From Quadrisphaera sp. RL12-1S (GTDB lineage: Bacteria; Actinomycetota; Actinomycetes; Actinomycetales; Quadrisphaeraceae): a stretch of 64,000 nt of DNA. The notes beneath the pieces are model-generated. The model did no database searches and was not told the DNA's origin. It worked only from the letters and a program-made list of their open reading frames with translations. The stretch spans positions 1 through 64,000 of the forward strand of contig NZ_JACNME010000010.1 of the NCBI RefSeq assembly GCF_014270065.1. Reading direction: 5' to 3'. Both the position numbers and the translations under genes were made by a program. Shown one piece after another: positions 32,777-62,313 of this stretch (the first letter of the stretch is position 1; every line of letters begins with the position of its first letter).

Positions 32777-32831
32777 CCGTGATCATGGGCTTCCCGAGCA
32801 CTTTCACCCCGTGATCATGGGCTTCCCGAGC
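32777..32831 (+). repeat. GTGATCATGG repeat, two direct copies
   Basis: Two copies of CCGTGATCATGGGC followed by TTCCCGAGC lie at 32777 and 32809, 32 bases apart. They face the triplicated inverted form at 33373-33462 on the other side of the ybaK-like gene. Confidence 0.85.
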
Positions 32832-32868
32832 GCCTCCCGTCGGTGGAGGACGACGGGGCTGCGCCAGG

Positions 32869-33354
32869 ATGGCGGGCGTGAGCACCGAGCGCGTGCAGGC
32901 CTTCCTCGACGAGCACCTGCCCGGGACCCGGGTCATCGAGCCCGAGGTCGACACCCCCACCGTGCAGGCGGCGGCCGACGCGCTCGGGGTCGAGCCGGGG
33001 CAGATCGCCAAGACGCTGGCGCTGCGCGCCGGTGACCGGGTGGTGCTCGTGGTGGCACGCGGCGACGCACGGCTCGACAACGCCAAGTTCAAGGCCGCCT
33101 TCGGTGCCAAGCCGCGCATGCTGCCCGGCGAGGAGGCCCACGCGGTGACCGGCCAGCCCGTGGGCGGCGTCAGCCCGTTCGGTCACCTGGAGCCGCTGGA
33201 GGTGCACTGCGACGAGTCGCTGCGGGCCTTCGACGTGGTCTACCCCGCCGGGGGCAGCCGCCGCTCGGCGGTGCCGCTGACGCCGGCGCAGCTCGGCGCG
33301 CTCACCGGTGACCGGTGGGTGGACGTGACGCGGCCGCCGCAGCCCAGTCCGTGA
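32869..33354 (+). CDS. YbaK/EbsC family aminoacyl-tRNA deacylase-like protein
   Basis: A 161-residue single-domain protein of the YbaK/ProX trans-editing family, which removes wrongly attached amino acids from tRNA. Visible features are the Lys in GQIAKTLALRAGD near residue 48, DARLDNAKFKAAFGAK, and the C-terminal GGVSPFGHLEPLEVHCDESL. The start is ATG 32869 (GTG 32878 also possible). It is flanked by inverted arrays of the GTGATCATGG repeat. Confidence 0.9.
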   Translation: MAGVSTERVQAFLDEHLPGTRVIEPEVDTPTVQAAADALGVEPGQIAKTLALRAGDRVVLVVARGDARLDNAKFKAAFGAKPRMLPGEEAHAVTGQPVGGVSPFGHLEPLEVHCDESLRAFDVVYPAGGSRRSAVPLTPAQLGALTGDRWVDVTRPPQPSP

Positions 33355-33372
33355 CCGCTCCGCTGTCTGACG

Positions 33373-33462
33373 GTGCTCGGGAAGTCCATGATCACGGCCG
33401 GAAAGTGCTCGGGAAGTCCATGATCACGGCCGGAAAGTGCTCGGGAAGCCCATGATCACGGA
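33373..33462 (-). repeat. GTGATCATGG repeat, three direct copies (32-base period)
   Basis: Three near-identical units at 33373, 33405 and 33437 read GTGCTCGGGAAG, then T or C, then CCATGATCACGG, with CCGGAAA between. They are the reverse complement of the units at 32777, so the ybaK-like gene sits inside a large inverted repeat. Confidence 0.9.
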
Positions 33463-33474
33463 GCGACGGGGCGG

Positions 33475-34020
33475 CTAGTCGCGGTCGGGGTCGCGGTGCA
33501 GGGCGACGAACAGCGACAGCGGTGTGGCGTCAGCCGCCCCGGGACGCTGGGCGAACTCGTCGAGCAGCGCGTCCAGGCGCTGCTCCAGCTCGGCGCGACC
33601 CTCGGCGTCCAGCCGCAGCCCGAGGCGGGCGACGCGCAGGTCGGGGTCGGCCGGGGCCTCCTCGGTGCCGTCGCCGAGCAGCACCGGCAGGGTCTGCGTG
33701 AACGCCTCGACCATGGCGCGGGCGGAGCGCTGCTCGTCCAGCTGCCACGACTTCCCGGTGGCGCGGTACGGCACCGAGCGGGCGCCGCGGCGGCCGCGGG
33801 TGGAGGGCATCGGCTCGAGGAAGCCGGTGCCCACCAGCGTCCGCACGTGGTGCAGGGCGGTGGCGGCGTTGAGCCCCAGGCGCTCGGCGATCGCGGCGTT
33901 GGTCATGGGGGTGTCCAGGCACATCCGCAGGATCCGCAGCCGCACGGCCGAGGCCAGGGCCTTGGCCTCCGCCTCGGTGGCGACGCGTCGGTGCGGGAGG
34001 TCCCAGGTCTGAGCGCTCAC
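33475..34020 (-). CDS. ArsR-like helix-turn-helix transcriptional regulator
   Basis: A 181-residue regulator with a winged helix near the N-terminus (VRLRILRMCLDTPMTNAAIAERLGLNAATALHHVRTL, here read in two parts) and an uncharacterised helical C-terminal part. The divergent MFS transporter 68 bases away is the likely target. GTG 34020 is taken as start, since residues upstream from 34068 look unrelated. A TTGA...TCAA repeat lies between the two genes. Confidence 0.85.
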   Translation of the reverse strand: MSAQTWDLPHRRVATEAEAKALASAVRLRILRMCLDTPMTNAAIAERLGLNAATALHHVRTLVGTGFLEPMPSTRGRRGARSVPYRATGKSWQLDEQRSARAMVEAFTQTLPVLLGDGTEEAPADPDLRVARLGLRLDAEGRAELEQRLDALLDEFAQRPGAADATPLSLFVALHRDPDRD

Positions 34021-34061
34021 GCACCCAACGTAGACACGACATGACGCACCGCGCTCAGTGA

Positions 34062-34075
34062 TTGACATTCCTCAA
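34062..34075. promoter_or_regulatory. Inverted repeat / -35-like element in regulator-MFS gap
   Basis: TTGACATTCCTCAA contains the inverted repeat TTGA-N6-TCAA and a consensus -35 hexamer TTGACA for the plus strand. It lies in the divergent gap and suits an operator of the regulator at 33475. Confidence 0.45.
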
Positions 34076-34088
34076 CCACTCCCGTCGC

Positions 34089-35411
34089 ATGGACCTCGTG
34101 GACCGCACAGACCCCGTGGCCCCCGGCCTGCTGCGCGCGCCCGAGGGCCGCGACTTCCGCCGCCTGTGGGCCGGCGACTCCGTCTCCCAGGGCGCCACGC
34201 AGGTGGGCGACCTCGTCGTCCCCCTGCTCGCCGTGACGGTGCTGGCCGCGACCCCGCTGCAGATGGGCGTGCTCTCCGCGGCGCAGTCGGCGGCGTTCCT
34301 GCTGCTCGGGCTGCCGGCGGGCGCGTGGGTGGACCGCTGGTCCAAGCGCCGCGTGCTCCTGCTCGGCAACCTCGTGCGGGCCGTGGCCCTCGCCGTCCTG
34401 CCGCTGGCCTGGTGGGCGGGGGTGCTGTCGCTGCCGCTGGTGGTGGCGGTGGCGTTCGTGGTGGGGGTGGCGACGCTGTTCTTCGACGTCGCCTACCAGA
34501 GCTACCTGCCCTCGCTCGTGCGCGCTGATCGGCTCGGGGAGGGCAACTCGCTGCTGCAGGTCTCGGCGTCGGTGGCGCAGGTCGGGGGTCCGGCGGTCGG
34601 CGGGTGGCTGGCGCGGCTGCTCGGGGCTCCGCTCGCGGTGGCGGTCTCGGCGGTGGCGTTCGCCGCCTCCAGCGGGCTGCTCTCGCGCATCTCCCACGTC
34701 GAGCCACCGCCGGACCGCTCCGCGCGCCGGTCGCTGCGGGCGGAGGTGGCCGAGGGCCTGTCGTTCGTGGTCCACCAGCCGCTGCTGCGCCGGATCGTCG
34801 CCACGACGAGCCTGTCCAACCTCGGCGGCAGCGCCTCGTCGGCGCTGCTGGTCCTCTACGCGGTGCGCCAGCTCGGCCTGTCGGAGGGGCAGGTCGGCAC
34901 CGCGCTCGGCATCGGCGCCGCGGGCGCGCTGCTCGGTGCGCTGACGGTGCAGCGCGTGGTGCGCGCCGTCGGCGAGGGCCGCACCATCGCGCTGTCCCTG
35001 CTGCCGGGGATCGCGGCCGGTGCGCTGCTGCCGCTGGCCGCACCGCTGGTGTCCCGCGGCTCGCTCGACGACGACGGCGCGGTCGCCCTCCTCGCCGTCT
35101 CCGGCGCCGTCATCGGCGTGAGCGTGGTGCTCTACAACGTGGCGCAGGTCACGTACCGGCAGCGCATCACGCCGGCGCCGCTGCTGGGGCGGATGAACGC
35201 GTCGGTGCGCTTCCTCGTGTGGGGGACCATGCCGATCGGTGCGCTGCTGGGCGGCGCGCTCGGCGAGCGGGTGGGGCTGGTGCCCATGCTGTGGACGGCG
35301 CTGGCGGTGGAGGCGCTCGGGGTGCTGCCGGTGCTGCTCAGCCCCCTGCTGCGCTCCGGCCCCGCCGCCGCCCCCGAGGCCCCCGCCGACGGCGGCTCCG
35401 CGGAGCCCTGA
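34089..35411 (+). CDS. MFS transporter (enterobactin exporter EntS-like)
   Basis: A 440-residue major facilitator with about 12 membrane spans. The N-terminal LWAGDSVSQGATQVGDLVVPLLAV and the loop after TM2-3 (LPAGAWVDRWSKRRVLLLGN) are typical of the MFS_3/EntS-like group, which exports small molecules or drugs. Domain-linking and C-terminal Arg/Lys clusters fit. ATG 34089 was chosen; an in-frame TTG at 34062 is part of the putative promoter. It is paired divergently with an ArsR-like regulator. Confidence 0.9.
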   Translation: MDLVDRTDPVAPGLLRAPEGRDFRRLWAGDSVSQGATQVGDLVVPLLAVTVLAATPLQMGVLSAAQSAAFLLLGLPAGAWVDRWSKRRVLLLGNLVRAVALAVLPLAWWAGVLSLPLVVAVAFVVGVATLFFDVAYQSYLPSLVRADRLGEGNSLLQVSASVAQVGGPAVGGWLARLLGAPLAVAVSAVAFAASSGLLSRISHVEPPPDRSARRSLRAEVAEGLSFVVHQPLLRRIVATTSLSNLGGSASSALLVLYAVRQLGLSEGQVGTALGIGAAGALLGALTVQRVVRAVGEGRTIALSLLPGIAAGALLPLAAPLVSRGSLDDDGAVALLAVSGAVIGVSVVLYNVAQVTYRQRITPAPLLGRMNASVRFLVWGTMPIGALLGGALGERVGLVPMLWTALAVEALGVLPVLLSPLLRSGPAAAPEAPADGGSAEP

Positions 35412-35466
35412 CCCCCTCCCCCGCGCAGCGGTGAGGTGTGCCCGCACCCCGGTGGGGAGCCTCGGG

Positions 35467-35528
35467 CCCGGTGGGCAGGCTCAGACCCGGATCCGGCCCC
35501 GGAAGCGGGACTCAGGCTGCCCACCGGG
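35467..35528. terminator. Long stem-loop between convergent genes
   Basis: A perfect 12-base stem CCCGGTGGGCAG (35467-35478) / CTGCCCACCGGG (35517-35528) lies after the MFS gene and before the convergent kinase-like gene. Confidence 0.75.
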
Positions 35529-35620
35529 GCTGAGCCGGCCCAGTCGCCCCCTGCTGCTCGCGCAGGACGTGGCGCCCTGACGCACGATCGTCACCGCGCC
35601 GGGCGGGCAGCCCCAGAGGG

Positions 35621-36559
35621 TCAGCAGCGCTCGCGCAGCCACGCCAGCGCCGCCCGGGCCTGCGCCGCCTGGAACGCCCGCAGCACGGGCAGGCCGGGCA
35701 CCGGTGGGAGCCGGGCCGCGTCGGTGAAGTACGCGGCGTCGGCGGCGAGCACAGCGGTCACCTCGCCCTCCCTCCCGGGGAAGCGCTCGGCGAGCAGTGC
35801 GTCGGCGTCCACGTCACTGCCCGACAGCCGCACGTTGAGCAGCAGCGCCACCGCGTCGAAGACCGGCGACCCGATGACGGCGTGCGGCCAGTCGACCACC
35901 ACCACTGACCCGTCGTCGCGCTGCAGGAGGTTGTCGGCGCGCACGTCGCCGTGCGCCAGCGACTCCCCGGCCAGCGCCCGGTTGCCGCGGCGAGCGAGCA
36001 CCGCGAGCTCCTCGAGCCGCTGCGCGGCCCAGGGGTCGACGCGCGACAGGTCAGGCCAGGGGTCGGCGAGGAGCCGCTCGAAGCCGGCGTCGTCGTGCTC
36101 CAGGTCGACCTCCGCGCGGGGCAGCGCCTCGCGCAGCGCAGCGGGGATCTCGGCGCGGGCCACCGCCGCCAGCGCGTCCAGCGCGGACTCGACGGCGGGC
36201 AGCCGCCAGGGCAGGGCGGGGCACTCGCCGTCGACGTCCTCGATGACCAGGGCCACCCACCCGTCCCGCTCGACGAGCCCCAGCAGCGCTGGCACCGGCA
36301 GGCCCGCGGGGAGCGCGCCGAGCACGCGCGCCTCGCGGCGGTGCAGGTCCACCGACCCCGGGTGGCGCTCGCCGTCGAGCGCCTTGACGAAGGCGCGTCG
36401 CCCCGATGCGGTCACCACGCGGTCGGCGGAGCCGGGTGAGAACCCGCCCACCTGCGTCACCGCCCGCACCACCGGCGATCCGAGCTCGCCGGCGACGGCG
36501 ACGCGCAGCCCTCCCGGCAGGTCGGACCACTGCGCCCGGCCGCCGCCCTCGCCCCTCAC
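35621..36559 (-). CDS. Aminoglycoside phosphotransferase-like kinase (APH family)
   Basis: A 312-residue protein with the APH/choline-kinase fold: the catalytic loop is LAHGDVRADNLLQRDDGSVVV near residue 210, followed by VDWPHAVIGSPVFD (metal-binding Asp). Family members phosphorylate antibiotics, sugars or other small alcohols; this one has no clear substrate hint. The GTG at 36559 was chosen because an earlier start (36613) falls inside a GTGATCATGG-type repeat. Confidence 0.82.
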   Translation of the reverse strand: MRGEGGGRAQWSDLPGGLRVAVAGELGSPVVRAVTQVGGFSPGSADRVVTASGRRAFVKALDGERHPGSVDLHRREARVLGALPAGLPVPALLGLVERDGWVALVIEDVDGECPALPWRLPAVESALDALAAVARAEIPAALREALPRAEVDLEHDDAGFERLLADPWPDLSRVDPWAAQRLEELAVLARRGNRALAGESLAHGDVRADNLLQRDDGSVVVVDWPHAVIGSPVFDAVALLLNVRLSGSDVDADALLAERFPGREGEVTAVLAADAAYFTDAARLPPVPGLPVLRAFQAAQARAALAWLRERC

Positions 36560-36604
36560 CGGCCCACCGTGCCTGTCCGTGCACGACGTCCGCCACGGGT
36601 TTGC

Positions 36605-36658
36605 TGCGCACAACGCCCATGATCACGATGGGTGGTGCGCACAACGCCCATGATCACG
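36605..36658 (-). repeat. GTGATCATGG repeat, two direct copies (second subtype)
   Basis: Two copies of TGCGCACAACGCCC followed by ATGATCACG lie at 36605 and 36636, 31 bases apart, between two minus-strand genes. The flank (GCGTTGTGCGCA on the other strand) differs from the TTCCCGAGCAC subtype at 32777. Confidence 0.85.
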
Positions 36659-36679
36659 GTCGGGGGCGGGGAGGGGCGG

Positions 36680-38104
36680 TCAGGGGGTCAGCACCCGCAC
36701 CGACGCGCGCGCCCGGCCGGTGACCTCGACGGCGGCCACCGCCGTCGCCGCGAGGTCGCTGCTGGCCGCGGCGCGCCCGTCGCTGGTGAACACCTCGACG
36801 ATGCCCGTGTCGACGTAGACGTCGGCCCACCGCACGCGCGGCTCCTCCGGCGTCCAGGTGCCGTCTACGAGCCGGTCGGTGGTGGAGCGCCCGAACGCCG
36901 ACAGGTCCACCACCGTGCGGTGCCCCTCCGGCGAGACGAGCACCAGGGTGCTGGCAGGCAGGGCCGCGTCGTCGTCCACCGCGAGGTTGATGACCACCGC
37001 CTGCGCCGGCTCGGGCAGCACCGCCGGCCCGCTGAGCCCGTCGGTCTCGACGACCACGTCACCGGCGAGGTCGCTGATCTCCGCCACCGGCGCCTGCTGG
37101 AGCCGGCCGCCCACCACGCGCCAGCGCCGGGGCAGCGACTGCGCGCCCACGCTGGTGCGGCCGGCGCTGGCCGGGTCGTCCTGGGTGCGCAGCCAGCCGA
37201 AGGCGATGCGCCGGCCGCCGTCGGCGGTCGTGTACGACTGCGGCGCGTAGAAGCGGGAGCCGAGGTCCAGCACGCCGCGGCGCTGGGGGACGAAGCGGGG
37301 CGGTGCGCCTGCGGGCTGCTCCAGCCGGCCGGTCAGCCACACCGCTCCAGAGGAGTGGTGCAGCTCCGCGTCGGCGTCCTTGGAGTACCAGGACAGCACC
37401 ACCACCAGCTCCTCGCCGTCCAGGTCGCCGGGGCCGTCCCCGGCCGGGGCGAAGACGTCCGGGCACTCGAAGACGTGCGCGTCCAGGCCCGCACCGGCGG
37501 CGTCGAGGAGGACGCCCTCGTACTCCCACTCCCGCAGCTCGGGGTCGGTGGTGGCGTAGGAGAGCAGCTTCGCCGCGCCGTCGTGCCCGGCGGTCCCGGC
37601 GGCCACCACCTGCCTCCAGTGCAGCTGCCCGCCGGGGTCGCGGGTGCGCAGCACGGCGTGGTCGCGCCAGTCGGTCAGCGGCGGGTCGAGGTCGGGCCAG
37701 TCGGAGACCACCGGCGCGTCGTCGGGGTGCCAGGTGACCAGCGAATCGTCGTCGGCGACGGCCCGCAGCGCCACCGCGCGCTGCGGGCCACCGCCCCCGG
37801 GCGGCTGCACCCCGGTGTAGAGCACCGCCTCGCGGCCACCCGGCAGGTCCACCGCGCAGCCGGACCAGCAGCCGCCCGCGTCCGGGCCGCCGGGCCGCGG
37901 CGAGAGCGCCGTGGGGTGCTCGGTCCAGTGGACGAGGTCGGGGCTGGTGGCGTGGCCCCACCGCATGACGCCGAACGTCGGCGCCTCGGGGTTGTGCTGG
38001 AAGAAGACGTGGTGCACGCCGCCGAACTGCGCCAGGCCGTTCGGGTCGTTCATCCACCCGGTCGTCGGCGTCAGGTGCAGGAGGGGCCGCTTCACGCCCC
38101 CCAT
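36680..38104 (-). CDS. Glycoside hydrolase family 32 (beta-fructosidase/sucrose hydrolase)
   Basis: A 474-residue protein without a signal peptide, so probably cytoplasmic. It has the nucleophile motif HLTPTTGWMNDPNGLAQF near residue 12, the transition-state stabiliser as TDWRDHAVLRT (usually R-D-P), and the acid/base in HVFECPDVFAP near residue 215. A five-bladed propeller is followed by a beta-sandwich (from about 330). It would hydrolyse sucrose, inulin or levan oligosaccharides. No fructose transporter lies next to it. Confidence 0.92.
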   Translation of the reverse strand: MGGVKRPLLHLTPTTGWMNDPNGLAQFGGVHHVFFQHNPEAPTFGVMRWGHATSPDLVHWTEHPTALSPRPGGPDAGGCWSGCAVDLPGGREAVLYTGVQPPGGGGPQRAVALRAVADDDSLVTWHPDDAPVVSDWPDLDPPLTDWRDHAVLRTRDPGGQLHWRQVVAAGTAGHDGAAKLLSYATTDPELREWEYEGVLLDAAGAGLDAHVFECPDVFAPAGDGPGDLDGEELVVVLSWYSKDADAELHHSSGAVWLTGRLEQPAGAPPRFVPQRRGVLDLGSRFYAPQSYTTADGGRRIAFGWLRTQDDPASAGRTSVGAQSLPRRWRVVGGRLQQAPVAEISDLAGDVVVETDGLSGPAVLPEPAQAVVINLAVDDDAALPASTLVLVSPEGHRTVVDLSAFGRSTTDRLVDGTWTPEEPRVRWADVYVDTGIVEVFTSDGRAAASSDLAATAVAAVEVTGRARASVRVLTP

Positions 38105-38129
38105 GCTGGCGCACGGGGGGCGCGGAGGA

Positions 38130-38468
38130 TCAGCCGACCTTGGGGCGGGCGGTGGGGACGACGGCGACGGGCCCGGGCACGAGCCGCGCCCACCCCACGC
38201 CCGTCCAGACGTGGCTGGCGCGCCCGGTCCAGGAGCCGCAGGTCAGGTCGATGACCTCCTCCGCGGGCACGTCCGGGTCGAGGTAGAGGTGGCCGGGCAT
38301 CGGCTGCTGCACCACCTCGAGGGCGTGCGCGCCGCGGGCGGCGGGGGGCTTGGCGCGGCCGGGGGTGGGTGCGAGCTGCGGCGGTGCAGCGTCCGGGAGG
38401 ACCTCGCCGCTGGCACGGCGGAGGCGCGGGACGCGCGGCGTGCGGAGGGAGCGGTCGGAACGGGTCAC
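38130..38468 (-). CDS. Hypothetical protein
   Basis: A 112-residue protein of unknown function. The N-terminus is Arg/Pro-rich and likely disordered; the compact part (EVVQQPMPGHLYLDPDVPAEEVIDLTCGSWTGRA, in two parts) holds most of the hydrophobic residues. The GTG at 38468 was chosen. A -10-like TCTATC lies only about 14 bases upstream, suggesting a very short leader. Confidence 0.55.
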   Translation of the reverse strand: MTRSDRSLRTPRVPRLRRASGEVLPDAAPPQLAPTPGRAKPPAARGAHALEVVQQPMPGHLYLDPDVPAEEVIDLTCGSWTGRASHVWTGVGWARLVPGPVAVVPTARPKVG

Positions 38469-38499
38469 GCGACGACGATAGATCGCCCTGCGTGATCGG

Positions 38500-38518
38500 T
38501 TGGGGCAGTTCGCCCCAA
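38500..38518. promoter_or_regulatory. Small inverted repeat upstream of hypothetical gene
   Basis: TTGGGGC-AGTTC-GCCCCAA is a perfect 7-base inverted repeat about 32 bases before the start of the gene at 38468. It could be an operator or a hairpin. Confidence 0.4.
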
Positions 38519-38576
38519 CACGCGGTGCTGCGAGCGCCTCGTGACAGCACCGAGACCCACCTGTGACCACGCTGCG

Positions 38577-39023: not shown

Positions 39024-39181
39024 CCGGCCATCCTGGCCCGCGGTCGGCCCCTCCTCGCACCAGGACGACGACGAGGGCCGCCCTCCCCGCGCGAGGCGCA
39101 TGATCGGACCCGAGCGCAGCAGCCGGGCCCTGGCGCTGTCCACCACCACCGGGCTGCTCGGCCACGCGCTGGGGCGCCGCG

Positions 39182-40732: not shown

Positions 40733-40752
40733 CGTCGTCCTCCGGAAGGAAA

Positions 40753-40774
40753 CTGTACTGACTGGTCAGTACAG
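40753..40774. promoter_or_regulatory. Perfect 22-base TetR operator palindrome
   Basis: CTGTACTGAC-TG-GTCAGTACAG is a perfect palindrome within the 90-base divergent gap between the efflux pump and the TetR gene. It also overlaps the likely promoters, so binding would block both genes. Confidence 0.8.
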
Positions 40775-40822
40775 TAGATGGGGTCCGGGGAGGGCTGTCA
40801 ACCGAGGGGCGAGACTGGTGTC

Positions 40823-45007: not shown

Positions 45008-45670
45008 GTGTTCCGCGTCTGTCACGCCGTCATCGCGGCGCTCGTAGTGGTCGCTCTCGTGGTGGACGTGTCGGTGACCGTGGCCGGCGGCCCCGGCTTC
45101 GTCGCTGTCGACGGGAGCCCGCTGGGCCTGGCCGGCAGGCTGGCCAACCTCTTCTCGTACTTCACCATCCTCAGCAACGTCCTCGTGCTGGCCACCTCGG
45201 CGCTGTTCGCGCTGCGCTCCGAGCCGTCCGGCGCCCTGTTCCGGGTGCTGCACCTGGACGCGCTGCTGAGCATCGTGGCCACGGGCGTGGTGTACGCGGT
45301 GCTGCTCGCAGCCACCGAGCACCCCACGGGCTGGTCCGTGGTGTCCAACACGATCTTCCACGACGTGGTGCCGGTGGCGTTCCCGCTGGCGTGGCTGGTG
45401 TTCGGGCCCCGGCCGCGGCTCACCTGGCGCCTGGTGGCGCTGGCGTTCGCGTGGCCGGTGGCGTGGCTGGTCTACACGTTCGTGCGGGGTGCTCTGACGG
45501 GCTGGTACCCCTACGGGTTCCTGGACGCCACCCAGCTGGGGTTCTGGGGCGCGCTGCTGGGAGCCCTGCAGGTCTTCGTGAGCGCGGTGGTGCTCGCCGT
45601 GGTGGTCAAGCTGCTCGACTCCCGCCTGCCCGCCCTCGCGCGGAGCAGCAGCCGCCCCACCGCGCACTGA
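45008..45670 (+). CDS. Pr6Pr family membrane protein
   Basis: A 220-residue protein with about six membrane spans. The family features are RLANLFSYFTILSNVLVLATS near residue 45, FHDVVPVAFPLAWLVFGP near residue 118, and GALTGWYPYGFLDATQLG near residue 163. It is related to the FAR-17a/AIG1-like group; some relatives hydrolyse fatty-acid esters, but the bacterial members are uncharacterised. The start is GTG 45008. It is the last gene of the run of small membrane genes. Confidence 0.85.
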   Translation: MFRVCHAVIAALVVVALVVDVSVTVAGGPGFVAVDGSPLGLAGRLANLFSYFTILSNVLVLATSALFALRSEPSGALFRVLHLDALLSIVATGVVYAVLLAATEHPTGWSVVSNTIFHDVVPVAFPLAWLVFGPRPRLTWRLVALAFAWPVAWLVYTFVRGALTGWYPYGFLDATQLGFWGALLGALQVFVSAVVLAVVVKLLDSRLPALARSSSRPTAH

Positions 45671-45740
45671 CGCCGCACTCGCGCGCCCGAGTGCGCCTTG
45701 GAGGGCCCGTGAGGACGCACTGAGGTGCGCGAGTGCGGCG
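45671..45740. terminator. Nested inverted repeat after Pr6Pr gene
   Basis: A perfect 14-base stem CGCCGCACTCGCGC (45671-45684) / GCGCGAGTGCGGCG (45727-45740) encloses a second repeat GCACTCG/CGAGTGC (45676-45682 with 45689-45695). It starts right after the stop codon and ends at the G run. Confidence 0.7.
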
Positions 45741-45756
45741 GGGGGGGGGGGGGGGG
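45740..45756 (+). repeat. Homopolymer run of 17 G
   Basis: Seventeen consecutive G lie directly upstream of the tandem operators of the LacI gene at 45805. Such runs are prone to slippage and to sequencing error. No other homopolymer near this length was noticed in the window. Confidence 0.85.
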
Positions 45757-50106: not shown

Positions 50107-52331
50107 CTCGCACCACGACCACTCAGCAGGTGTCCCCGAGCGGTGACCCCCGTGATCATGGACGTCCCGCGCACACCACGGCCGGCAGGGCGTCTGAAAG
50201 TGCTTCGGAAGTCCATGATCACGGTGGGGTGGTCCCTCCTCCGCTGAGGACGACGACGCGCGCCGTCGCGGTGGCAGCTGCGCTGCTGCTCGGTGGCACC
50301 TGCCTGGCCGCGCCGGCAGCGGCAGCGCCGGCCCAGCCCCCGGCCGCTGGCCAGCAGAGCCAGGCGGACCGCAAGGCACCCCAGGGGCAGCGGCTGGCGA
50401 ACACCGGTCACCTGACCACGCTCACCACGCGCGTGGCCCCGCCGGCCCAGGCCGGTCACACCACGTACCGGCTGGCCGAGGAGCCCGAGCTGGGCGTGCT
50501 GTGGACGTACGCCGAGCCGTCGCAGCCGTCAGGGAGCGCCTCCCGCCCGGGCGTGACGAGCAAGGACGGGTGGGACCTCCTCGGCGGCGGCACGTACGAC
50601 GCCGCCACCGGCCGCTGGACGCAGGGCGCGTTCAACGCCGACGACGTCACCCGCGCCGCCGTCGCCTTCACCCGCCACTGGCGGGCCACCGGCGACGCGG
50701 CCAGCCGCGAGCAGGCGTACGAGCTGCTGCGCGGCGCGACGTACCTGCAGACCACCGACGGTCCGGACGCCGGGAACGTCGTCCTGTGGATGCAGCCCGA
50801 CGGCCAGCTGAACCGCAGCGCGGAACCGGTGGAGCTGCCCGACCCGAGCGACTCCGCGGAGTCGTACTGGCTGGCTCGCACCGTCTGGGCGCTGGGTGAG
50901 GGGTACGCGGCGTTCGCCGCATCCGACGCGCCCGGCGACCGGGAGTTCGCGGCGTTCCTGGCGCAGCGGATGGCGCTGTCGCTGGACGCGCTGCAGCGCC
51001 AGAGCCTCGGCAGGTACGGGCAGTACGAGGTCTCCGACGGCGACCGCGTGCCCGGCTGGCTCATCACCGGTGGTGCGGACGCCACGAGCGAGGCCGTGCT
51101 CGGGCTGGCGGCGTTCGTCGGGGCGGGCGGGCGAGCAGCCGCCGACCCCGCCGTCGTCGCGAGGGCCAGGACGGCGCTGCGCCAGTACGCCGAGGGCGTC
51201 GCCGCCATGGGCACCCCGCCCACCACGGACGTCACGACCCGCGGGCGGGGCACGGCGGCGCCCACCTACCCGTTCGGCGCGGTGCTGCCGTGGACGCCGT
51301 CGCGCTCGCAGTGGCACGCGTGGGGCGCGCAGATGCCGGCGGCGCTGGCCGAGGCCTCCGACGTGCTCGGAGACCCGGCGCTGCTCTCCCCCGCCGTGGA
51401 CGACGCGTCGGTGTTCACGCCGCTGCTGCTCGCCTCCGGCGGGCCCGACAGCTCCTGGGCCCCGGCGCCGGTGGACAGGTCGCAGATCGCCTACGGCGCT
51501 GACGCGCGGCTGGCCTCGGTGCTCGCCGTCGCCGACGAGAGCGGTGACCGAGCGCTCGACACGCAGGTGGCCGGGGCTGCGGGCGCGTGGTTCTTCGGTG
51601 CCAACCCGGCCGGTGTTCCCGTCTACGACCCGAGGACCGGCACCACCAACGACGGCATCAACGCCGACAGGACGGTGAACAAGAACTCCGGGGCGGAGTC
51701 GACCATCCACGGCTTCCTCGCGGCGCTCGCGCTCGACGAGCACCCGGCCGCGAAGGCGATCGCCACGCAGCAGACGCGCGTCACGCAGCGCGACGGGCTG
51801 CGGGTGGTGGAGGGCGAGGCCGGCACGACGTCCGGCACGGCCCCGGCCGGCAGCGTCGTCACGCTCCCCGAGGAGAAGGCGTGGACCGGTGAGGCGCAGT
51901 GGTCCGGCGGCGCCTACCGCTCGCTGCCGCCCGGCGCCGCGACGCAGCTGGCGCTGCCCGCGGCCGGCGGCCCGGGTCCGCGGTGGGCGTCCGTCGTCGT
52001 CGACCTGGCCGCCGCGCCGGGTGCTCCGGCGCCGAGGCTCACCGTGGCGGCCCTCGACACGAAGACCGGCAGGACGACCGCGCTGGGCGACGTGGACCTG
52101 CGCGGCGTGGAGCAGGGGGTCTCGGCCGGGCCGGGCTCGCTGCGCGCGCTGCCGCTGGGCGTGCCCCTGCCGCAGGGCGCCGACGCGCTGGTGGTGACCT
52201 CCAGCGGAGCGGCGGCCGCCGGGCCGGCGTCGCTGGACGCCGTCCTCGTGGTGCCGCAGACGCCGTCGCTGACCCTGTCCACCCCCGACGGGAAGCGCTC
52301 GACCACCGTCACGACCGACCTCACCCGCTGA
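50103..52331 (+). CDS. Secreted glycan-active protein, (alpha/alpha)-barrel-like
   Basis: A 742-residue protein. A 50-residue hydrophilic N-terminal extension made largely of GTGATCATGG repeat sequence precedes a signal-like segment (AVAVAAALLLGGTCLAAPAAAA, read in parts, residues 54-77). The middle (about 130-560) has regularly spaced helices (YWLARTVWALGEGYAAF; EAVLGLAAFVGAG) and ends in WFFGANPAGVPVYD, then NKNSGAESTIHGFLAALAL, a pattern of alpha/alpha-barrel glycosidases and lyases. The last 180 residues are beta-rich, like a carbohydrate-binding sandwich. The ATG overlaps the permease stop by 4 bases. A later start such as the GTG near 50229 could be the real one. Confidence 0.75.
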   Translation: MTRTTTTQQVSPSGDPRDHGRPAHTTAGRASESASEVHDHGGVVPPPLRTTTRAVAVAAALLLGGTCLAAPAAAAPAQPPAAGQQSQADRKAPQGQRLANTGHLTTLTTRVAPPAQAGHTTYRLAEEPELGVLWTYAEPSQPSGSASRPGVTSKDGWDLLGGGTYDAATGRWTQGAFNADDVTRAAVAFTRHWRATGDAASREQAYELLRGATYLQTTDGPDAGNVVLWMQPDGQLNRSAEPVELPDPSDSAESYWLARTVWALGEGYAAFAASDAPGDREFAAFLAQRMALSLDALQRQSLGRYGQYEVSDGDRVPGWLITGGADATSEAVLGLAAFVGAGGRAAADPAVVARARTALRQYAEGVAAMGTPPTTDVTTRGRGTAAPTYPFGAVLPWTPSRSQWHAWGAQMPAALAEASDVLGDPALLSPAVDDASVFTPLLLASGGPDSSWAPAPVDRSQIAYGADARLASVLAVADESGDRALDTQVAGAAGAWFFGANPAGVPVYDPRTGTTNDGINADRTVNKNSGAESTIHGFLAALALDEHPAAKAIATQQTRVTQRDGLRVVEGEAGTTSGTAPAGSVVTLPEEKAWTGEAQWSGGAYRSLPPGAATQLALPAAGGPGPRWASVVVDLAAAPGAPAPRLTVAALDTKTGRTTALGDVDLRGVEQGVSAGPGSLRALPLGVPLPQGADALVVTSSGAAAAGPASLDAVLVVPQTPSLTLSTPDGKRSTTVTTDLTR
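50149..50225. repeat. GTGATCATGG repeats in inverted pair inside the 5' end of a gene
   Basis: CCCGTGATCATGGACGTCCC (50149) and, inverted, GTGCTTCGGAAGTCCATGATC with ACGG following (50201-50224) lie within the first 42 codons of the gene at 50103. They encode GDPRDHGRP and SEVHDHGGV. Confidence 0.85.
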
Positions 52332-54280: not shown

Positions 54281-54346
54281 CCCCGCCCCGCCCCGCCCCG
54301 CCGAGACCGCACTGACCGCGCTGACAGCGCTGACAGCGCTGACAGC
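54281..54346. repeat. Short tandem repeats CCCCG and GCTGACAGC
   Basis: Four copies of CCCCG (54281-54300) and three copies of GCTGACAGC (54320-54346) fill most of the gap between the membrane protein and the oxidoreductase. No promoter is clear here. Confidence 0.85.
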
Positions 54347-54400
54347 GCACTGGTGCATCAGTCCCCGGGCCGGGTTGCAGACCTGATCTAGGCTGCCGAC

Positions 54401-56740
<2,340 letters not shown>

Positions 56741-56847
56741 CCGGCTGCTCGACCAGCTGCTCGACCGGCTGCTGACCGGCGCCGGGTCGGCCGGGGGTCC
56801 GGCCGGGGTCCTTCGAGTGGGCACTGCGGCCCGCGGTGCGAGACGCT

Positions 56848-56874
56848 CGCCACCGGCACCAGGTGACGGTGGCG
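56848..56874 (+). terminator. Stem-loop before kinase gene
   Basis: CGCCACCG (56848-56855) / CGGTGGCG (56867-56874) is a perfect 8-base stem with an 11-base loop about 110 bases after the oxidoreductase stop. A second stem GGCGGG/CCCGCC overlaps it. Confidence 0.55.
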
Positions 56875-56939
56875 GGTGCTCCCGCCACCGGTGACGGCTG
56901 GGGAGCCCCAGGGACCGTCGAGGTGCGAGGGAGTCGGAC

Positions 56940-58622
56940 GTGGTGGCCGTGAGCCAGTCCCCGCGCGTGCTCGCAGACCGGTACGAGCTGGCCGAGCTGC
57001 TGGGGCGGGGTGGCATGGCGGAGGTCCACGCCGCCCTCGACCGGCGCCTCGGCCGCCGGGTCGCCGTGAAGCTGCTCCGCTCGGAGCTGGGGCGCGACCC
57101 CTCGTTCCAGGCGCGCTTCCGCCGCGAGGCGCAGTCCACGGCGCTGGTGGACCACCCCGCGGTCGTCACCGTGTACGACAGCGGCGAGGACGTGCGGACC
57201 GAGTCCGGCGGTGCGCAGGTCCGCACGCCCTACATCGTCATGGAGCTCGTGGCGGGCCGCACGGTGCGCGAGCTGCTCGACGAGGCCGCCGCCTCCGGGG
57301 AGTCCGGGCTGGGCGCCGAGCGCGCCGTGGAGATCACCGCCGGGGTGCTCACCGCGCTGCAGGCCGCCCACGACGCCGGGATCGTCCACCGGGACGTCAA
57401 GCCCGCCAACGTCATGGTCACGCCCACCGGCGGCATCAAGGTCATGGACTTCGGCATCGCCCGGGCCGTGGCCGACTCCTCGCTGACCCTCACGCACGGC
57501 AGCGCCGTCGTCGGCACCGCGCAGTACCTCTCCCCCGAGCAGGCGCGCGGCGAGGCGGTCGACGCCCGCACCGACCTGTACTCCGTCGGCTGCCTGCTGC
57601 ACGAGCTGCTCACCGGGCGGCCGCCGTTCACCGGGGAGTCCGCCCTCGCGGTGGTCTACCAGCACGTCGGGGAGCTGCCGGCGCCGCCCAGCCGGTACGA
57701 CAGCACCATCAGCGACCAGCTGGACCGGGTGGTGCTCACGGCGCTGTCCAAGCAGCGCGACGACCGGCAGCCCGACGCCCTGGCGTTCCGCGACGACCTG
57801 CTCGCGGCGCTGGCAGGCACGGCTCCCAGCAGACGGGCCGCCCGTGCCCCCCTCGCCGGCGGCCGCGCCGGTGGCGTTCCGGCGCTACCACCCGGACCGC
57901 GGCGCGGCCGGCGCCGGGCGGCGGCGCTCGCCGGGGCGGTGCTCGTCGTCGGCCTGGCCCTGGGCGGCTGGTCTCCCGACCGGGCGGCTCCCGGGGCGAC
58001 GACCACCGGCCGGGGCGTCGAGCCCCGCACGCCCGTGCTGCTGACCACCGCCGGCGGGTCGTCGGACGCAGTGGAGACCACCTCCAGCACCGTCGCCCCG
58101 GCTGCGCCGTCGGCGAGCGCCGCGCAGACCTCCCGCGGCGCGGGCAGCAGCGCGGTGCCGGCCGTCACCACGGGTCGCACGGCGGCGGCCGACGACGACG
58201 GCGGGACCCCCGCCGGCGACGACGGGACCGTTGCCGGCTCCGCCGCCTCCCCCGCGTCGGTGGCGACCGGGGCCGCAGCGGGCGCGGGGTCGTCCGCGCC
58301 GACGGACCCGGGGGTGGGATCGGACCAGGACAGCACCCCGTCAGATCCGTCCCCGACGGGCAGTGGTGGGGGCGGCGACGCGGGGCGCGGCGGGCCCGGC
58401 TCCGGGCAGAGCCAGTCACCGGCGCCGGCGCAGCAGCCGGCACCCAGCGCGGCACCGGCGCAGGGTGCTGGACAGGGCGCAGGTCAGGGCTCAGACCAGG
58501 GTGCGGGTCAGGGTCCCTCCGCGGGGCGGGCCACCGGTCCCGGCCGCAGCGGCGAGGCGCCCGGACAGGCCACGAGCCAGGGGAAGGGCCCGAGCCAGGG
58601 GCAGGGCCGGCAGCACGGCTGA
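56940..58622 (+). CDS. Serine/threonine protein kinase, PknB type
   Basis: A 560-residue kinase. Residues 15-280 are the kinase domain: LLGRGGMAEVH (Gly loop), VAVKLL (Lys), IVHRDVKPANVMVT (catalytic loop), KVMDFGIAR (DFG) and GTAQYLSPEQA (activation). A basic stretch leads into one span (AALAGAVLVVGLALGG, about 330-346), and the outer part is 210 residues of low-complexity Ser/Thr/Pro/Gly, ending in repeats of GAGQ and SQGQ. There are no PASTA domains, so the outer part is unlike PknB itself. The start is GTG 56940. Confidence 0.93.
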   Translation: MVAVSQSPRVLADRYELAELLGRGGMAEVHAALDRRLGRRVAVKLLRSELGRDPSFQARFRREAQSTALVDHPAVVTVYDSGEDVRTESGGAQVRTPYIVMELVAGRTVRELLDEAAASGESGLGAERAVEITAGVLTALQAAHDAGIVHRDVKPANVMVTPTGGIKVMDFGIARAVADSSLTLTHGSAVVGTAQYLSPEQARGEAVDARTDLYSVGCLLHELLTGRPPFTGESALAVVYQHVGELPAPPSRYDSTISDQLDRVVLTALSKQRDDRQPDALAFRDDLLAALAGTAPSRRAARAPLAGGRAGGVPALPPGPRRGRRRAAALAGAVLVVGLALGGWSPDRAAPGATTTGRGVEPRTPVLLTTAGGSSDAVETTSSTVAPAAPSASAAQTSRGAGSSAVPAVTTGRTAAADDDGGTPAGDDGTVAGSAASPASVATGAAAGAGSSAPTDPGVGSDQDSTPSDPSPTGSGGGGDAGRGGPGSGQSQSPAPAQQPAPSAAPAQGAGQGAGQGSDQGAGQGPSAGRATGPGRSGEAPGQATSQGKGPSQGQGRQHG

Positions 58623-58636
58623 CCGCGGAGGGGCCC

Positions 58637-61600
58637 TCAGGTCGTGCCGACGGCTCGGCCACCCCGCGCCGGCGTCGCCGGCGCGGTGAGCGCGGCACCG
58701 AGGTCGAGGACGGCGTCGCAGCGGTCCACGCCCTCGGGCCGGTGCGTGAGCAGCAGCACGCTCGGCCGCTGACCGCCCTCGTCGTCGTCGTGCTCGTCTC
58801 CGAGCAGGTCGGCGACCAGCGCCTGGGCGGTGGGCTCGTCGAGGCCCTCGGTGGGCTCGTCGAGGACGAGGACGTCGGGCCGGGGCAGCAGCGCCCGGGC
58901 GGCCGCGAGCCGGCGCCGCTCGCCGCCGCTGACGGTGGAGCCGCCGTCACCGAGCCAGGTGTCCAGGCCGTCGGGCAGCCGGGCGAACCAGTCGCCGAGG
59001 CGCACGCGCCGCAGGACGGCCACGAGCTCGGCGTCGTCGGCGTCAGGGGCCGCGAGCGCGAGGTTGGCGCGCAGCGTGGTGGCGAACAGGTGCTCGGTGG
59101 CCTCGCTCACCAGCCCGATGCGGCGGCGGACAGCGGCCGGGTCGAGCGCGCGCACGTCCACGCCGCCCAGGGTCACCGTGCCGGCGCGCGGGTCGAGCAG
59201 TCGGACCACCACCGCGCCCAGCGTCGACTTGCCCGACCCGGACGGCCCGAGCACCGCGACGCGCTGCCCGGGCGGGAGGTCGAGGTCGAGCCCGGTGAGG
59301 GCGGGCGGGCGCTGCGGGTCCCAGCCCGCGACGAGCCCGCGGACGACGAGCGCGGACCGGGCGGGCACGTCGGCGCTGCGCCCGGTCCGCTCGTCCACCG
59401 ACGGCGCCTGCTCGGCCACGGCCGCCAGCCGCCGCTCGGCCGCCCGGGAGCGCTCGCGTGCGACCGCGGCGTCGACCAGGCCCAGCACCGGCTCGCCGAG
59501 CGCCAGCACCACGAGGACGACGACGGCCGCGCCCTCCGCGCCCAGCGCCCCGGCCGTCACCGACGCCAGCGCGCCGGCGGCTGCCGCGACCACCGCGAGA
59601 CCGGAGCCCAGGTGCGCGAGCGCCGTGGCGGTGCCGGCGCCGCCCGCTGCGCGGACCTCGGCGGCGGCCAGGTCGCGGCCGCGGGCGCGGGGCACGGCCA
59701 GCGCGGTCCGCGCTCCTCCGGCGGTGGCTCGGGCGGCCAGCTCGTCGACGGCGTCGACGGTCTCCACGGCGGCGTCGGCGAGGGCCGCCCGCTCCGCGGC
59801 GAGGGCGGCGTCGGTGCGCCGGGCGGCGCGGGCGCCCAGCGCGGGAGCGGCCAGGGCGGCGACGGCGAACCCCGCGGCGGCGCCCAGCGAGGCCAGCGGG
59901 TCGAGCACGGCCAGCACGCCGAGGACGACGACGACCGCCGCCAGCGCCGCGGCCGCGGGGAGCCGGCCGCGCAGGAGCCCGTCGAGTCGGGCGTCGACGT
60001 CCCCCACGAGGCGGGTGAGCAGGTCGCCGCGGCGCAGCGGCCCCGGTCCGGGGACGCGCGGGACGAGGTCGGCCAGCACCTGCGAGCGCCAGCGGGCCAG
60101 GCGGCGCAGGGCGACCTCGTGGGAGGCGAGGCGCTCAAGGTAGCGCAGCAGCGGGCGGGCGACGGCGCTGCCGCGCACGGTGACGACGGCGGCGGACAGG
60201 GTGAGCACGGGCGGCAGGGTCGAGGCGCGCACGAGCAGCCAGGTGGCGGCGGCGGTGAGGGCCGCGCCCGCGAGCCAGGAGGCGGAGCCCAGCGCGACGG
60301 CGGTACCGGGCCGGCGCCCGGCCGCCCGGAGCGTCCGCCCCCACCAGCCCGGCCTCTCCGCCTCCCCACCGTGATCATGGGCGTTCTGCGCAGACCCCCC
60401 GTGATCATGGGCGTTCTGCACATCCGTGTGCACGACGCCCATGATCACGGACGGGGTGGTGGACGGGGTGGTGGACGGGGTGGTCGTGGACGCGGTGGTG
60501 GGGGCGGGCGGCACCACGGCGACGGTCCTGTGCACCGCGGCCAGCAGCGCCGGGCGGTGCGCGGCCACGAGCACGGCGCTGCCGGCGTCCGCGGCGGCGC
60601 GCAGCGCGGTCACCACGCGGGCCTCCGCGGCGGTGTCGAGGTGGGCGGTCGGCTCGTCGAGCAGGAGCACCGCCGGACGGCGCCCCGCCGCGCGCAGCAC
60701 CCGCGCCAGGGCCAGGCGCTGCCGCTGCCCGGTGGACAGGCCCGCCGCGCGCTCGCCGACCGGCGTGCCCAGGCCGGCGGGCAGCGCCTCCACCTCGGCG
60801 CGCAGCCCGACCAGCTCGAGGGCGTCCAGCAGCTCGGCGTCGGCGGGGAGGCCCGAGCCTCGCCCGGGCCCGTCGTCGTCCTCGTCCTCGTCGTCGTCGG
60901 CCAGCTGCGCGGCCAGCTCCTCGTCGAGCAGGAGGGCGTCGCGGACGGTGCGGGCGTGGGGCAGCAGCGGGTCCTGCGTGAGCAGCAGCACCCGGCCGGT
61001 CACGCTGACCGACCCCGCGGCGAGCGGCTGCACGCCGGCGAGCGCCCGCAGGAGGGTGGTCTTGCCGGCGCCGGAGGGACCCCGCAGCGCGACCAGCTCG
61101 CCACCGCGCACGGACACCGCGTCGAGGGAGAGCGCGTCGACGGACCGGCCGGCATGCCGCACGCGCAGGTCGGAGCCACTCACGGAGGGTGCCTGCTCGC
61201 TGACTCCACGGACGGGAGTCCCATGATCACGGTCGGGGTCCGGGGCGGTGAGGACGGCGTCCACCTCGGCGATGACGGCGGCGGCGTCGGCGGAGGCGTG
61301 GAAGCGGGCCCCCACCTCGCGCAGCGGCCGGTACGCCTCGGGCGCGAGCAGGATCGCCAGCAGGGCGGGCGCCAGCGCCATCGACCCGTCGGCCACGCGC
61401 AGGCCGGCCTCCACCGCCACCAGCCCCACCGAGAGGGTGCCGACCAGGTCGAGCGCGGTGGAGGACAAGAACGCCACCCGCAGCACCCGCAGCGTCGCCT
61501 CGCGGTGGCGCTCGGTGGTCGCGGCGACCTCCCCGACCTGCCGCTGCGCCCGGCCGTGCACCCGCAGCAGGGCCAGACCGCGCACCACGTCGAGGAAGTG

Positions 61601-62311
61601 CCCCGCCAGCCGGGCGCCCTCCTCCACGCGCTCCGCAGCGCGCCGCTGCGTGGCCCAGCCGATGAGGATCGCGAAGACCGGCACCAGCGGCAGCGTCACC
61701 AGCACGAGCAGCGCCGAGCGCCAGTCGACGGCCAGCAGCACGAGCACCACCACGGGCGGCAGCAGCGCGCCGACCACCAGCGAGGGCAGGTACCCGGAGA
61801 ACCACGGCCGGAGCGCGTCGAGCCCGGCCGCTCCCCCGCCGCCGCTGCCGCCGGGACCGCTGGTCGCGGCGACCAGGGCGCGCAGGCGCCCGGCGCCGTG
61901 GGACGCCACCCAGGCGGGGCCGCGGCGCAGCGCCGCCTCGAGCACCGCCGTGCGCAGCTCGTCCACGGCGGCGGAGCCGGCCCGGGCGGACAGCACCGAC
62001 TCCGCGCGGGCCAGCAGCGCCCGGGCGAGGAACGCCCCGGCGAGCACTGCCAGCTGCACGCCCGTCCCGGGCAGCCAGGCGGGCAGGCCGTACCCGGCCG
62101 GTGACGGCGGGGCCCCGTCGCGCGCGGCCACCGCGAGGCTGACGACGACGCCGGCGGCCGTGGCCGCCACCAGCAGCGTGACCAGCACCTGCGCCGCCCC
62201 GACGAGCACGAGGCCGGCGACGGGGCGGCGGGCGGCGCGCGCGTGGCGCAGCAGCCGCGGGTCGACGGGGCCGCGGCTGGCGCGCGCGGGGTGACTAGCG
62301 CCCATGATCAC
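58637..62311 (-). CDS. Fused CydDC: thiol/heme exporter for cytochrome bd assembly
   Basis: A 1224-residue fusion of both halves of the CydDC ABC exporter, which moves reduced thiols to allow cytochrome bd assembly. The CydD half has six spans and a cassette with GPSGAGKTTLL near residue 405 and GLSTGQRQRLALARVL; the CydC half has spans from about 690, GPSGSGKSTLG near 1025 and TVSGGERRRLAAARALL. An unusual linker (about 630-680) encodes GTGATCATGG repeats, another copy is in the CydD half, and a third supplies the start region (GTG 62311 or ATG 62305). It lies 21 bases after cydB. Confidence 0.93.
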   Translation of the reverse strand: MIMGASHPARASRGPVDPRLLRHARAARRPVAGLVLVGAAQVLVTLLVAATAAGVVVSLAVAARDGAPPSPAGYGLPAWLPGTGVQLAVLAGAFLARALLARAESVLSARAGSAAVDELRTAVLEAALRRGPAWVASHGAGRLRALVAATSGPGGSGGGGAAGLDALRPWFSGYLPSLVVGALLPPVVVLVLLAVDWRSALLVLVTLPLVPVFAILIGWATQRRAAERVEEGARLAGHFLDVVRGLALLRVHGRAQRQVGEVAATTERHREATLRVLRVAFLSSTALDLVGTLSVGLVAVEAGLRVADGSMALAPALLAILLAPEAYRPLREVGARFHASADAAAVIAEVDAVLTAPDPDRDHGTPVRGVSEQAPSVSGSDLRVRHAGRSVDALSLDAVSVRGGELVALRGPSGAGKTTLLRALAGVQPLAAGSVSVTGRVLLLTQDPLLPHARTVRDALLLDEELAAQLADDDEDEDDDGPGRGSGLPADAELLDALELVGLRAEVEALPAGLGTPVGERAAGLSTGQRQRLALARVLRAAGRRPAVLLLDEPTAHLDTAAEARVVTALRAAADAGSAVLVAAHRPALLAAVHRTVAVVPPAPTTASTTTPSTTPSTTPSVIMGVVHTDVQNAHDHGGSAQNAHDHGGEAERPGWWGRTLRAAGRRPGTAVALGSASWLAGAALTAAATWLLVRASTLPPVLTLSAAVVTVRGSAVARPLLRYLERLASHEVALRRLARWRSQVLADLVPRVPGPGPLRRGDLLTRLVGDVDARLDGLLRGRLPAAAALAAVVVVLGVLAVLDPLASLGAAAGFAVAALAAPALGARAARRTDAALAAERAALADAAVETVDAVDELAARATAGGARTALAVPRARGRDLAAAEVRAAGGAGTATALAHLGSGLAVVAAAAGALASVTAGALGAEGAAVVVLVVLALGEPVLGLVDAAVARERSRAAERRLAAVAEQAPSVDERTGRSADVPARSALVVRGLVAGWDPQRPPALTGLDLDLPPGQRVAVLGPSGSGKSTLGAVVVRLLDPRAGTVTLGGVDVRALDPAAVRRRIGLVSEATEHLFATTLRANLALAAPDADDAELVAVLRRVRLGDWFARLPDGLDTWLGDGGSTVSGGERRRLAAARALLPRPDVLVLDEPTEGLDEPTAQALVADLLGDEHDDDEGGQRPSVLLLTHRPEGVDRCDAVLDLGAALTAPATPARGGRAVGTT
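60369..60450. repeat. GTGATCATGG repeats in the CydD-CydC linker
   Basis: Two direct copies of CCGTGATCATGGGCGTTCTG (60369, 60399) and one inverted copy (60427-60450) form a cluster inside the coding sequence. They translate as VIMGVV, QNAHDHGG and QNAHDHGG in the linker. Confidence 0.88.
61215..61232 (-). repeat. GTGATCATGG repeat inside the CydD half
   Basis: GGAGTCCCATGATCACGG reads as DRDHGTP between the membrane domain and the first ATPase domain of CydDC, where a flexible link is expected. Confidence 0.75.
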
Positions 62312-62313
62312 GG
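62298..62313 (-). repeat. GTGATCATGG repeat at the cydDC start
   Basis: GCGCCCATGATCACGG covers the cydDC start; both possible start codons (GTG 62311 and ATG 62305) come from the repeat itself. Confidence 0.75.

Follow-up and report, generated by a model that had tools for sequence, protein, structure and literature searches.

Short dispersed repeats in Quadrisphaera and the predicted AbiEi-like/Vsr-like nuclease genes that they bracket

Introduction

Short repeats at gene ends are common in bacteria, and in the parts of the literature that were found here the RAYT-type tyrosine transposase is the only enzyme tied to them. The stretch considered in this work, 64,000 nucleotides of Quadrisphaera sp. 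RL12-1S (contig NZ_JACNME010000010.1, positions 1 to 64,000; hereafter the window), carries a family of dispersed repeats. A first-pass annotation likened them to repetitive extragenic palindromic (REP) elements or miniature inverted-repeat transposable elements (MITEs), or to a multi-site protein target, and proposed a REP-type transposase as their partner. The locus raises the question of what these repeats are and which enzyme they depend on. We report that they bracket the genes of a predicted nuclease, which joins an AbiEi-like to a Vsr/DUF559-like part. The repeats are probably short non-autonomous elements that work like REPINs (REP doublets forming hairpins) and depend on an enzyme other than RAYT.

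Results

In the window, the word CCGTGATCATGGRC was matched 16 times with at most two mismatches (12 exact), against 0.80 expected from shuffled sequences (n = 100, maximum 3), and the constant part of the unit, GTGATCATGG, occurred 15 times exactly against 0.01 expected. The whole RL12-1S genome (G000) contains 167 exact copies of CCGTGATCATGGRC (82 on the plus and 85 on the minus strand), so that the motif is not confined to a few sites, and the five congeners contain 81, 100, 231, 90 and 99; the counts in 53 other genomes of the order are 0-3 per genome. The congeners include G002, a record named Streptomyces sp. NP160, G003, Quadrisphaera granulorum DSM 44889, G004, Quadrisphaera sp. INWT6, and G005, a metagenome-assembled genome. 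The shorter CGTGATCATGG returned 128-346 copies in the six congeneric genomes, and among the 198 genomes searched its highest densities outside the genus were in G027 (37 copies in 3.0 Mb) and G008 (23 in 3.2 Mb). A 25-mer search of named records returned 0 records.

The anatomy of the unit was defined on 69 joined stretches (691,601 bases) selected around all 167 copies. Each unit consists of a near-palindromic 12-mer core, CCGTGATCATGG, and a variable tail of about 13 bases, and units are arranged in direct arrays or in facing hairpins. The 205 units with at most one mismatch vary only at core positions 1 and 2, positions 3-12 being invariant, while nine neighbouring words with two mismatches, outside the 205, differ elsewhere in the core. 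Tail variants include GCGTTGTGCGCAC (period 31), ACTTCCCGAGCAC (period 32), GCGGTCGGCCACC and others, and the two flanking forms first noticed in the window are both real. The spacing of 30 to 32 bases proposed earlier holds for direct neighbours: across the stretches sampled from six genomes it was seen in 107 of 111, of which 65 are 31 apart and 40 are 32 apart. It fails for facing neighbours, which mostly lie 38-43 bases apart, centre to centre.

Among the genes lying between neighbouring arrays, two paralogs of G000 were conspicuous (C4:229236-230177 and C1:666923-667855), whose bracketing arrays point inward (++ gene --). The same orientation was found at all seven Quadrisphaera nuclease genes with exact units on both sides, the left units being all plus and the right ones all minus, and two further genes in G003 (C2, C12) carry units on the left before the contig ends. 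Orthologs of the C4 gene (site I) were located in G002 C104, G005 C135 and, by eye, G003 C12, and those of the C1 gene (site II) in G001 C6, G002 C143, G005 C70 and G003 C2. The tails at these paralogs resemble those of the window, being TTCCCGAGCAC-like at C4 and GTTGTGCGCA-like at C1. The five clear nuclease members located in G000 are all bracketed. At both G000 loci the nuclease gene is the only gene called between the arrays, and the AbiEii toxin gene that accompanies AbiEi was not met there. Several ordinary genes also sit between arrays. Bracketing as a general feature of genes was considered and rejected, as the nuclease family alone recurred and neighbour-gene controls were negative.

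The encoded protein, of about 310 residues, combines an N-terminal AbiEi-like part of winged-helix type with a C-terminal Vsr/DUF559-like PD-(D/E)XK nuclease part, as judged from profiles. The N-terminal half matches PF09407, PF13338 and the PADLOC AbiEi profile, although not in all members. PF18741 was matched by the C-terminal half of all 11 scanned sequences, always below cut-off, and PF04480 exceeded its cut-off in only 4 of the 11, all distant members. PADLOC likewise returned AbiEi matches with weak nuclease matches, and NCBIfam gave only sub-cut-off DUF559 matches (3 of 8). The assignment to the PD-(D/E)XK class is based on profile matches together with conserved acidic and histidine residues, namely E201, E205, D237, E248, D250 and H255, invariant across 11 sequences. 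The predicted structure was confident (mean pLDDT 92.3, pTM 0.90), and in our judgement the helix-strand order of the model fits this class. A sequence-profile search of solved structures with the nuclease found nothing. The ratio of nonsynonymous to synonymous differences (pN/pS) between site II orthologs was 0.28-0.41.

The association was not limited to one repeat word, as other paralogs are bracketed by words such as GACGATCAAGG, GTGATCTTGCAC, CGAGTCCGACGTC and GACGCCGGACGTGCAGA. A scan of named records gave 31 loci in Quadrisphaera, Kineosporia, Cellulomonas, Kribbella, Nocardioidaceae, Propionibacteriaceae and others, 27 of which were scored (L224, L227, L230 and L236 were dropped for flanks shorter than 200 bases). 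The best inverted repeat across the gene scored at least 15 at 21 of the 27 loci and at none of 54 neighbour genes (Fisher p = 2e-14). All 10 loci from genomes already met lay above this threshold, as did 11 of 17 from new genomes (p = 5e-9 against the same 54 neighbour genes). In a percentile test that took in 30 of the 31 loci, the score reached the 95th percentile of 327 Quadrisphaera genes at 24.

For two other repeat families, the dispersed copies follow the presence of the bracketed nuclease. Within a syntenic 400 kb, GACCGAGGTCA, which brackets the G000 member C1:37128, occurs 19 times between genes in G000 (7 beside the nuclease), against 1 intergenic and 4 coding occurrences in G001. 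Conversely, CGCACTT[T/G]CCG, which brackets the G001 member C1:271303, occurs 18 times between genes in G001 (6 beside the nuclease) against once in G000, in which the corresponding place yielded no member. For both families the copies away from the nuclease number 12 against 1, and neither family is common in the species without the bracketed nuclease. Flank tails were also most like the dispersed tails of their own species in all three species compared; this comparison drew on 212 dispersed copies from a hit-enriched sample, the 400-kb count being the unbiased figure. On these grounds, the description of nuclease and repeats as a cognate pair is well supported.

A number of observations weigh against a REPIN-like system dependent on this nuclease, besides the sub-threshold nuclease profile matches given above; the main ones are the case of G004, the broken frames and the new loci below threshold. 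G004 contains 146 copies of CGTGATCATGG, and no close nuclease was found in its assembly, which is 91% complete; its best nuclease piece (157 bits) belongs to another subfamily and has a broken frame. Four nuclease copies have broken frames, namely the two of G002, one of those in G005 and that of G004 (L187, L198, L214, L191); this may in part be assembly error, since G002 has N gaps inside hairpins. A sixth, weak G000 hit at C3:348671, cut by the edge of a stretch, has no repeat on its readable side, and the G001 ortholog of C1:37128 has no bracketing repeat. Six of the 27 scored loci fell below threshold, all of them among the 17 from new genomes. Finally, the stretches read of G007 (40 kb) and G008 (100 kb) showed no copies away from the nuclease, and the 180 kb read of G006 showed just 4.

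Two further dispersed patterns were observed beside nuclease genes. A second intergenic family, TGACCGAGGTCA, has CCTGCGG tails and forms arrays, spaced for example by 103 and 125 bp. It brackets a distant nuclease paralog (L125, G000 C1:36842-38348) and also lies at G000 C1:54834-54907, 62984-63234 and 100615-100710. In assemblies of a Nocardioides, a Nocardioidaceae and another actinomycete, dense direct arrays (e.g. GTTGAGTTGGCCCTCCGGGC) are matched on both sides of the nuclease gene (L241 from 2248, L228 from 2344, L232 from 2277). The nuclease gave 1 weak hit in the plasmid collection, to a record of 11.85 Mb, and none in the phage collection.

Comparison between species indicated turnover of the units. 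Among 319 orthologous gene ends of G000 and G001, under a loose motif definition (at most two mismatches), 12 carry the motif in both species, 7 in G000 only, 5 in G001 only and 295 in neither; a few of the 24 motif-bearing ends are chance words because of this definition. By eye, the tails often differ where both species have the motif while the arms still pair, and another hairpin is often there where one species is without it. Units were also found as exact copies. In Q. granulorum an identical 62-bp hairpin is present at two loci of one contig in opposite orientation, with the identity stopping at the core edges, and in G000 the longest exact segments common to different arrays measure 56, 48 and 44 bp. 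At site I, G001 has no nuclease gene and only a bare facing hairpin, whose flanks and outer cores are those of the gene-bearing form; the hairpin ends are inverted and common to that form. From this bare hairpin, the exact 62-bp copy, the co-occurrence of repeats and nuclease and the analogy with known systems, we infer that the nuclease may copy the repeats.

The chief rival is a regulatory pairing, in which the repeats would be sites of an AbiEi-type DNA-binding autorepressor, acting as insulator or roadblock at gene ends and spread by gene conversion, with a protein that mobilises nothing. The available part of PMC7319586 reports autoregulation by AbiEi through inverted repeats. AbiEi proteins reportedly bind such repeats in the promoters of their own genes, so that a purely regulatory pairing is conceivable, and this too counts against the copying of repeats by the nuclease. 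The invariant core agrees with a protein target, as do the spacings: the 89 pooled inverted pairs (centre to centre) favour multiples of 10.5 bp (R 0.70), and direct neighbours lie 31-32 apart, as with proteins on one face of the DNA. The phasing is strong in the pooled data, in G000 and in G001; as it is not significant in the facing pairs of G003 alone (p 0.155), we do not use it as a main argument, and hairpin geometry or a 31-bp unit could give part of it. Against regulation alone, the arrays lie on both sides of the gene and not only at the promoter, the conserved nuclease domain would be unnecessary, and the exact 62-bp copy and the bare hairpin at site I resemble mobility. We consider a purely regulatory pairing unlikely, although a multi-site protein target, as proposed by the first-pass annotation, is possibly compatible with mobile repeats, the two ideas not being mutually exclusive.

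The placement of the repeats was then compared with genes delimited by a simple purpose-made gene caller. Of the 106 clusters, 48 are in convergent gaps, 43 in codirectional gaps, 8 in divergent gaps and 7 inside called open reading frames (ORFs), against a junction background of 112 convergent, 349 codirectional and 111 divergent, which is local as the stretches were chosen around repeat copies. Of 122 array heads outside ORFs, 89 face a stop codon and 33 a start; 50 lie 8-19 bases past the stop, and for 19 the TGA contained in the core is itself the stop of the called gene. C makes up 70% of the lead from stop to core, compared with 48% at 157 other gene ends. In an unbiased sample of 400 kb the 10-mer occurs 26 times between genes and 2 times in coding sequence, so codon use does not explain it.

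Such a distribution, together with the folding of the units, would suit hairpin transcription terminators without a U-run, whose arm sequence became common through gene conversion and whose nuclease neighbours are incidental. Facing pairs have tails that agree with each other at 9.76 of 12 positions, compared with 6.82 for shuffled partners (n = 29; highest of 2000 shuffles 8.34), 41 direct arrays fold better on the sense strand than their shuffles do (mean z -2.45, against -0.66 for the antisense strand), and compensated changes appear, by eye, to keep hairpins at several orthologous ends. However, 54 convergent ends without the motif fold as strongly (median -48.2) as 16 with it (-46.0), so the repeat word is not needed for a hairpin, and the great majority of the orthologous ends compared above have no motif in either species. 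The ++ and -- clusters of codirectional gaps show only a weak bias (13 sense against 8 antisense), and the repeats bracketing the nuclease paralogs are left unexplained. The pure terminator reading is kept as a rival that we regard as quite improbable: the hairpins are real, but the repeat word marks only a small share of gene ends. A sense-strand-only reading was rejected for the same weak bias, despite the sharp distance of the heads from the stops.

Classical REP elements, or bacterial interspersed mosaic elements (BIMEs), moved by a RAYT (Y1 tyrosine transposase) share the overall style: imperfect palindromes, mostly extragenic, clustered and at 3' ends. The Y1 transposase profile PF01797 was found in none of 13 genomes of the taxonomic family, whereas 5 of 14 control genomes were positive. 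Of 180 exact units, 1 has GTAG nearby and 3 have GTAG or its complement; CGTC lies near 68 of the 180 at no constant place, the commonest position (28 of 180) being the junction of lead and core. The repeats are not classed as REP/RAYT, since neither the defining transposase nor the tag turned up when looked for, and mobilisation by a RAYT is very improbable. The comparison with mobile repeats made by the first-pass annotation stands as to style, given the mostly extragenic position at gene ends, the direct and inverted groups, the genus-wide expansion, the differences between species, the exact copied unit and the bracketed enzyme gene; in the place of the proposed transposase, the AbiEi-like/Vsr-DUF559-like nuclease was found.

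A last alternative is a DNA-uptake signal. Neisserial DNA uptake sequences are asymmetric short words paired in hairpins at gene ends, often within terminators, and the invariant 10-mer and the frequent facing pairs at gene ends of Quadrisphaera are similar in this respect. Unlike them, the repeats are tied to a nuclease gene and nearly excluded from coding sequence, and similar tails, arrays of period 31 or 32 and separate words for each nuclease paralog would be unexpected in an uptake signal. This explanation was set aside for the near absence of the word from coding sequence and has hardly any likelihood.

The window itself holds 14 units in seven groups, at positions that agree within about 11 bases with those first listed, and none in its first 32 kb, as had been noted; an extra 10-mer at 63897 falls within called coding sequence and was excluded from the unit count. 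A direct array of two units (32777 and 32809, period 32; 32777..32822, plus strand) with the tail form TTCCCGAGCAC begins 14 bases past the stop codon of gene 31734-32762. Three minus-strand units with the same tail form (33384, 33416 and 33448, period 32; 33384..33461) have their head facing the stop of the minus-strand gene 33475-34020. The two arrays together bracket a tRNA_edit-domain gene (32869-33354). G001 lacks this gene and both arrays here (window 32763-33475), and in G005 about 4 kb of additional sequence adjoins the gene; the sequence comparison suggests gene gain or loss at a repeat-marked gap.

The minus-strand direct array 36615..36659, with the tail form GTTGTGCGCA, comprises a unit with one mismatch at 36615 and a second at 36646, 31 apart, and lies at the 3' end of the minus-strand gene 36680-38104. 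The facing pair 50150..50224 (50150 plus, 50211 minus) is not at the orthologous place in three aligned congeners, whose gaps measure 8, 26 and 23 bp against 143, an empty-site comparison of the kind first proposed for the family.

The remaining groups are connected with a 1224-aa ORF (58637-62311) for a fused ABC transporter with two ATPase domains, which we take to be CydDC-like and in which repeat units lie between the domains. The group 60369..60450 (60369 plus, 60399 plus, 60437 minus; tail form GTTCTGCGCA) falls, by arithmetic, at about residues 620-647, between the two halves of the ORF. A single minus-strand unit with one mismatch in the 14-mer (61219..61232) falls at about residue 360 on the same arithmetic, between membrane and ATPase domains. 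Another single minus-strand unit (62300..62313) lies 19 bases past the stop of the minus-strand gene 62333-63367 and overlaps the start of the ABC ORF.

A scan of the window for known RNA families (at gathering threshold) and tRNAs gave none, and no nuclease gene of the AbiEi-like/Vsr family was found in the window. Other intergenic words, judged by eye, include a long imperfect palindrome (GGTGGGCAGCCTGAG-like) in the convergent gap 35437-35550, with many matches on both strands in congeners and perhaps another repeat family, and an inverted repeat (CCGCACTCGCGC-like) adjoining a long G run at 45663-45755, with several matches in G002.

Discussion

The repeats described here share several features with REP/REPIN elements and their RAYT (REPtrons). 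They are short imperfect palindromes, for the most part extragenic and frequently downstream of genes, in direct and inverted groups; a genome has several families; and the enzyme gene, which is retained at orthologous places, is bracketed by a repeat of its own. They differ in the partner, which is an AbiEi-like/Vsr-DUF559-like nuclease and not a Y1 HUH transposase, in the lack of a constant GTAG/CGTC tag and in the unit, which is a core with a tail at a period of 31 or 32. The available part of PMC3733652 ties REP-type repeats to tyrosine transposases or, for the CGTC repeats, to no transposase, and a text search of it for "actinobact" gave no match.

The N-terminal half of the protein resembles AbiEi, the antitoxin of the AbiE type IV toxin-antitoxin system, from which the present proteins differ in their nuclease-like C-terminal half and in repeats that lie on both sides of the gene and are dispersed. 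The C-terminal half, through the PF18741 and PF04480 matches reported above, resembles Vsr-type restriction endonucleases of the MTES_1575/DUF559 kind. The consulted part of PMC3710099 names the MTES_1575 domain a Vsr restriction endonuclease in a HEPN fusion protein and does not mention dispersed repeats. In a literature search covering titles and the start of abstracts, nothing linked AbiEi, DUF559 or Vsr genes to dispersed repeats.

If the nuclease copies the repeats, its AbiEi-like N-terminal part would bind the repeat core and its nuclease part would nick repeat DNA folded as a hairpin, after which repair or replication would copy the unit to other places. Copies just past stop codons would survive because they do little damage there and the hairpin could be used as a terminator-like structure.

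Vsr enzymes recognise lesions of the G-T mismatch type. In the main family, two copies of CCGTGATCATGG pair together only with two G-T mismatches left, and the nuclease could read such a mismatched hairpin in single-stranded DNA, nick it and start copying. The mismatch detail may be local, since the families GACCGAGGTCA and GCACTTGCC lack it. By analogy, a wider proposal can be framed, according to which an independently evolved counterpart of REPIN-RAYT exists in several actinobacterial families, with AbiEi/Vsr-like nucleases, many having their own repeat word, that copy short hairpins genome-wide, the mismatched hairpin of the main family being read in single-stranded DNA and nicked. As a whole we hold this proposal to be speculative and rather doubtful.

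Conclusions

The bracketing of the nuclease genes by the same repeat suggests that a kind of tiny self-spreading DNA has gone unrecognised, one relying on a predicted DNA-cutting enzyme that differs from the enzyme known for such repeats. If true, a second, unrelated enzyme would have cognate repeats, so that this way of life would have arisen more than once. The repeat family would be predictable from the protein, and the reverse. Related species that share synteny but differ in having a given bracketed nuclease offer a ready comparison for the persistence of the repeats, and the poorly understood AbiEi/DUF559-like genes of Actinobacteria would gain a concrete job.

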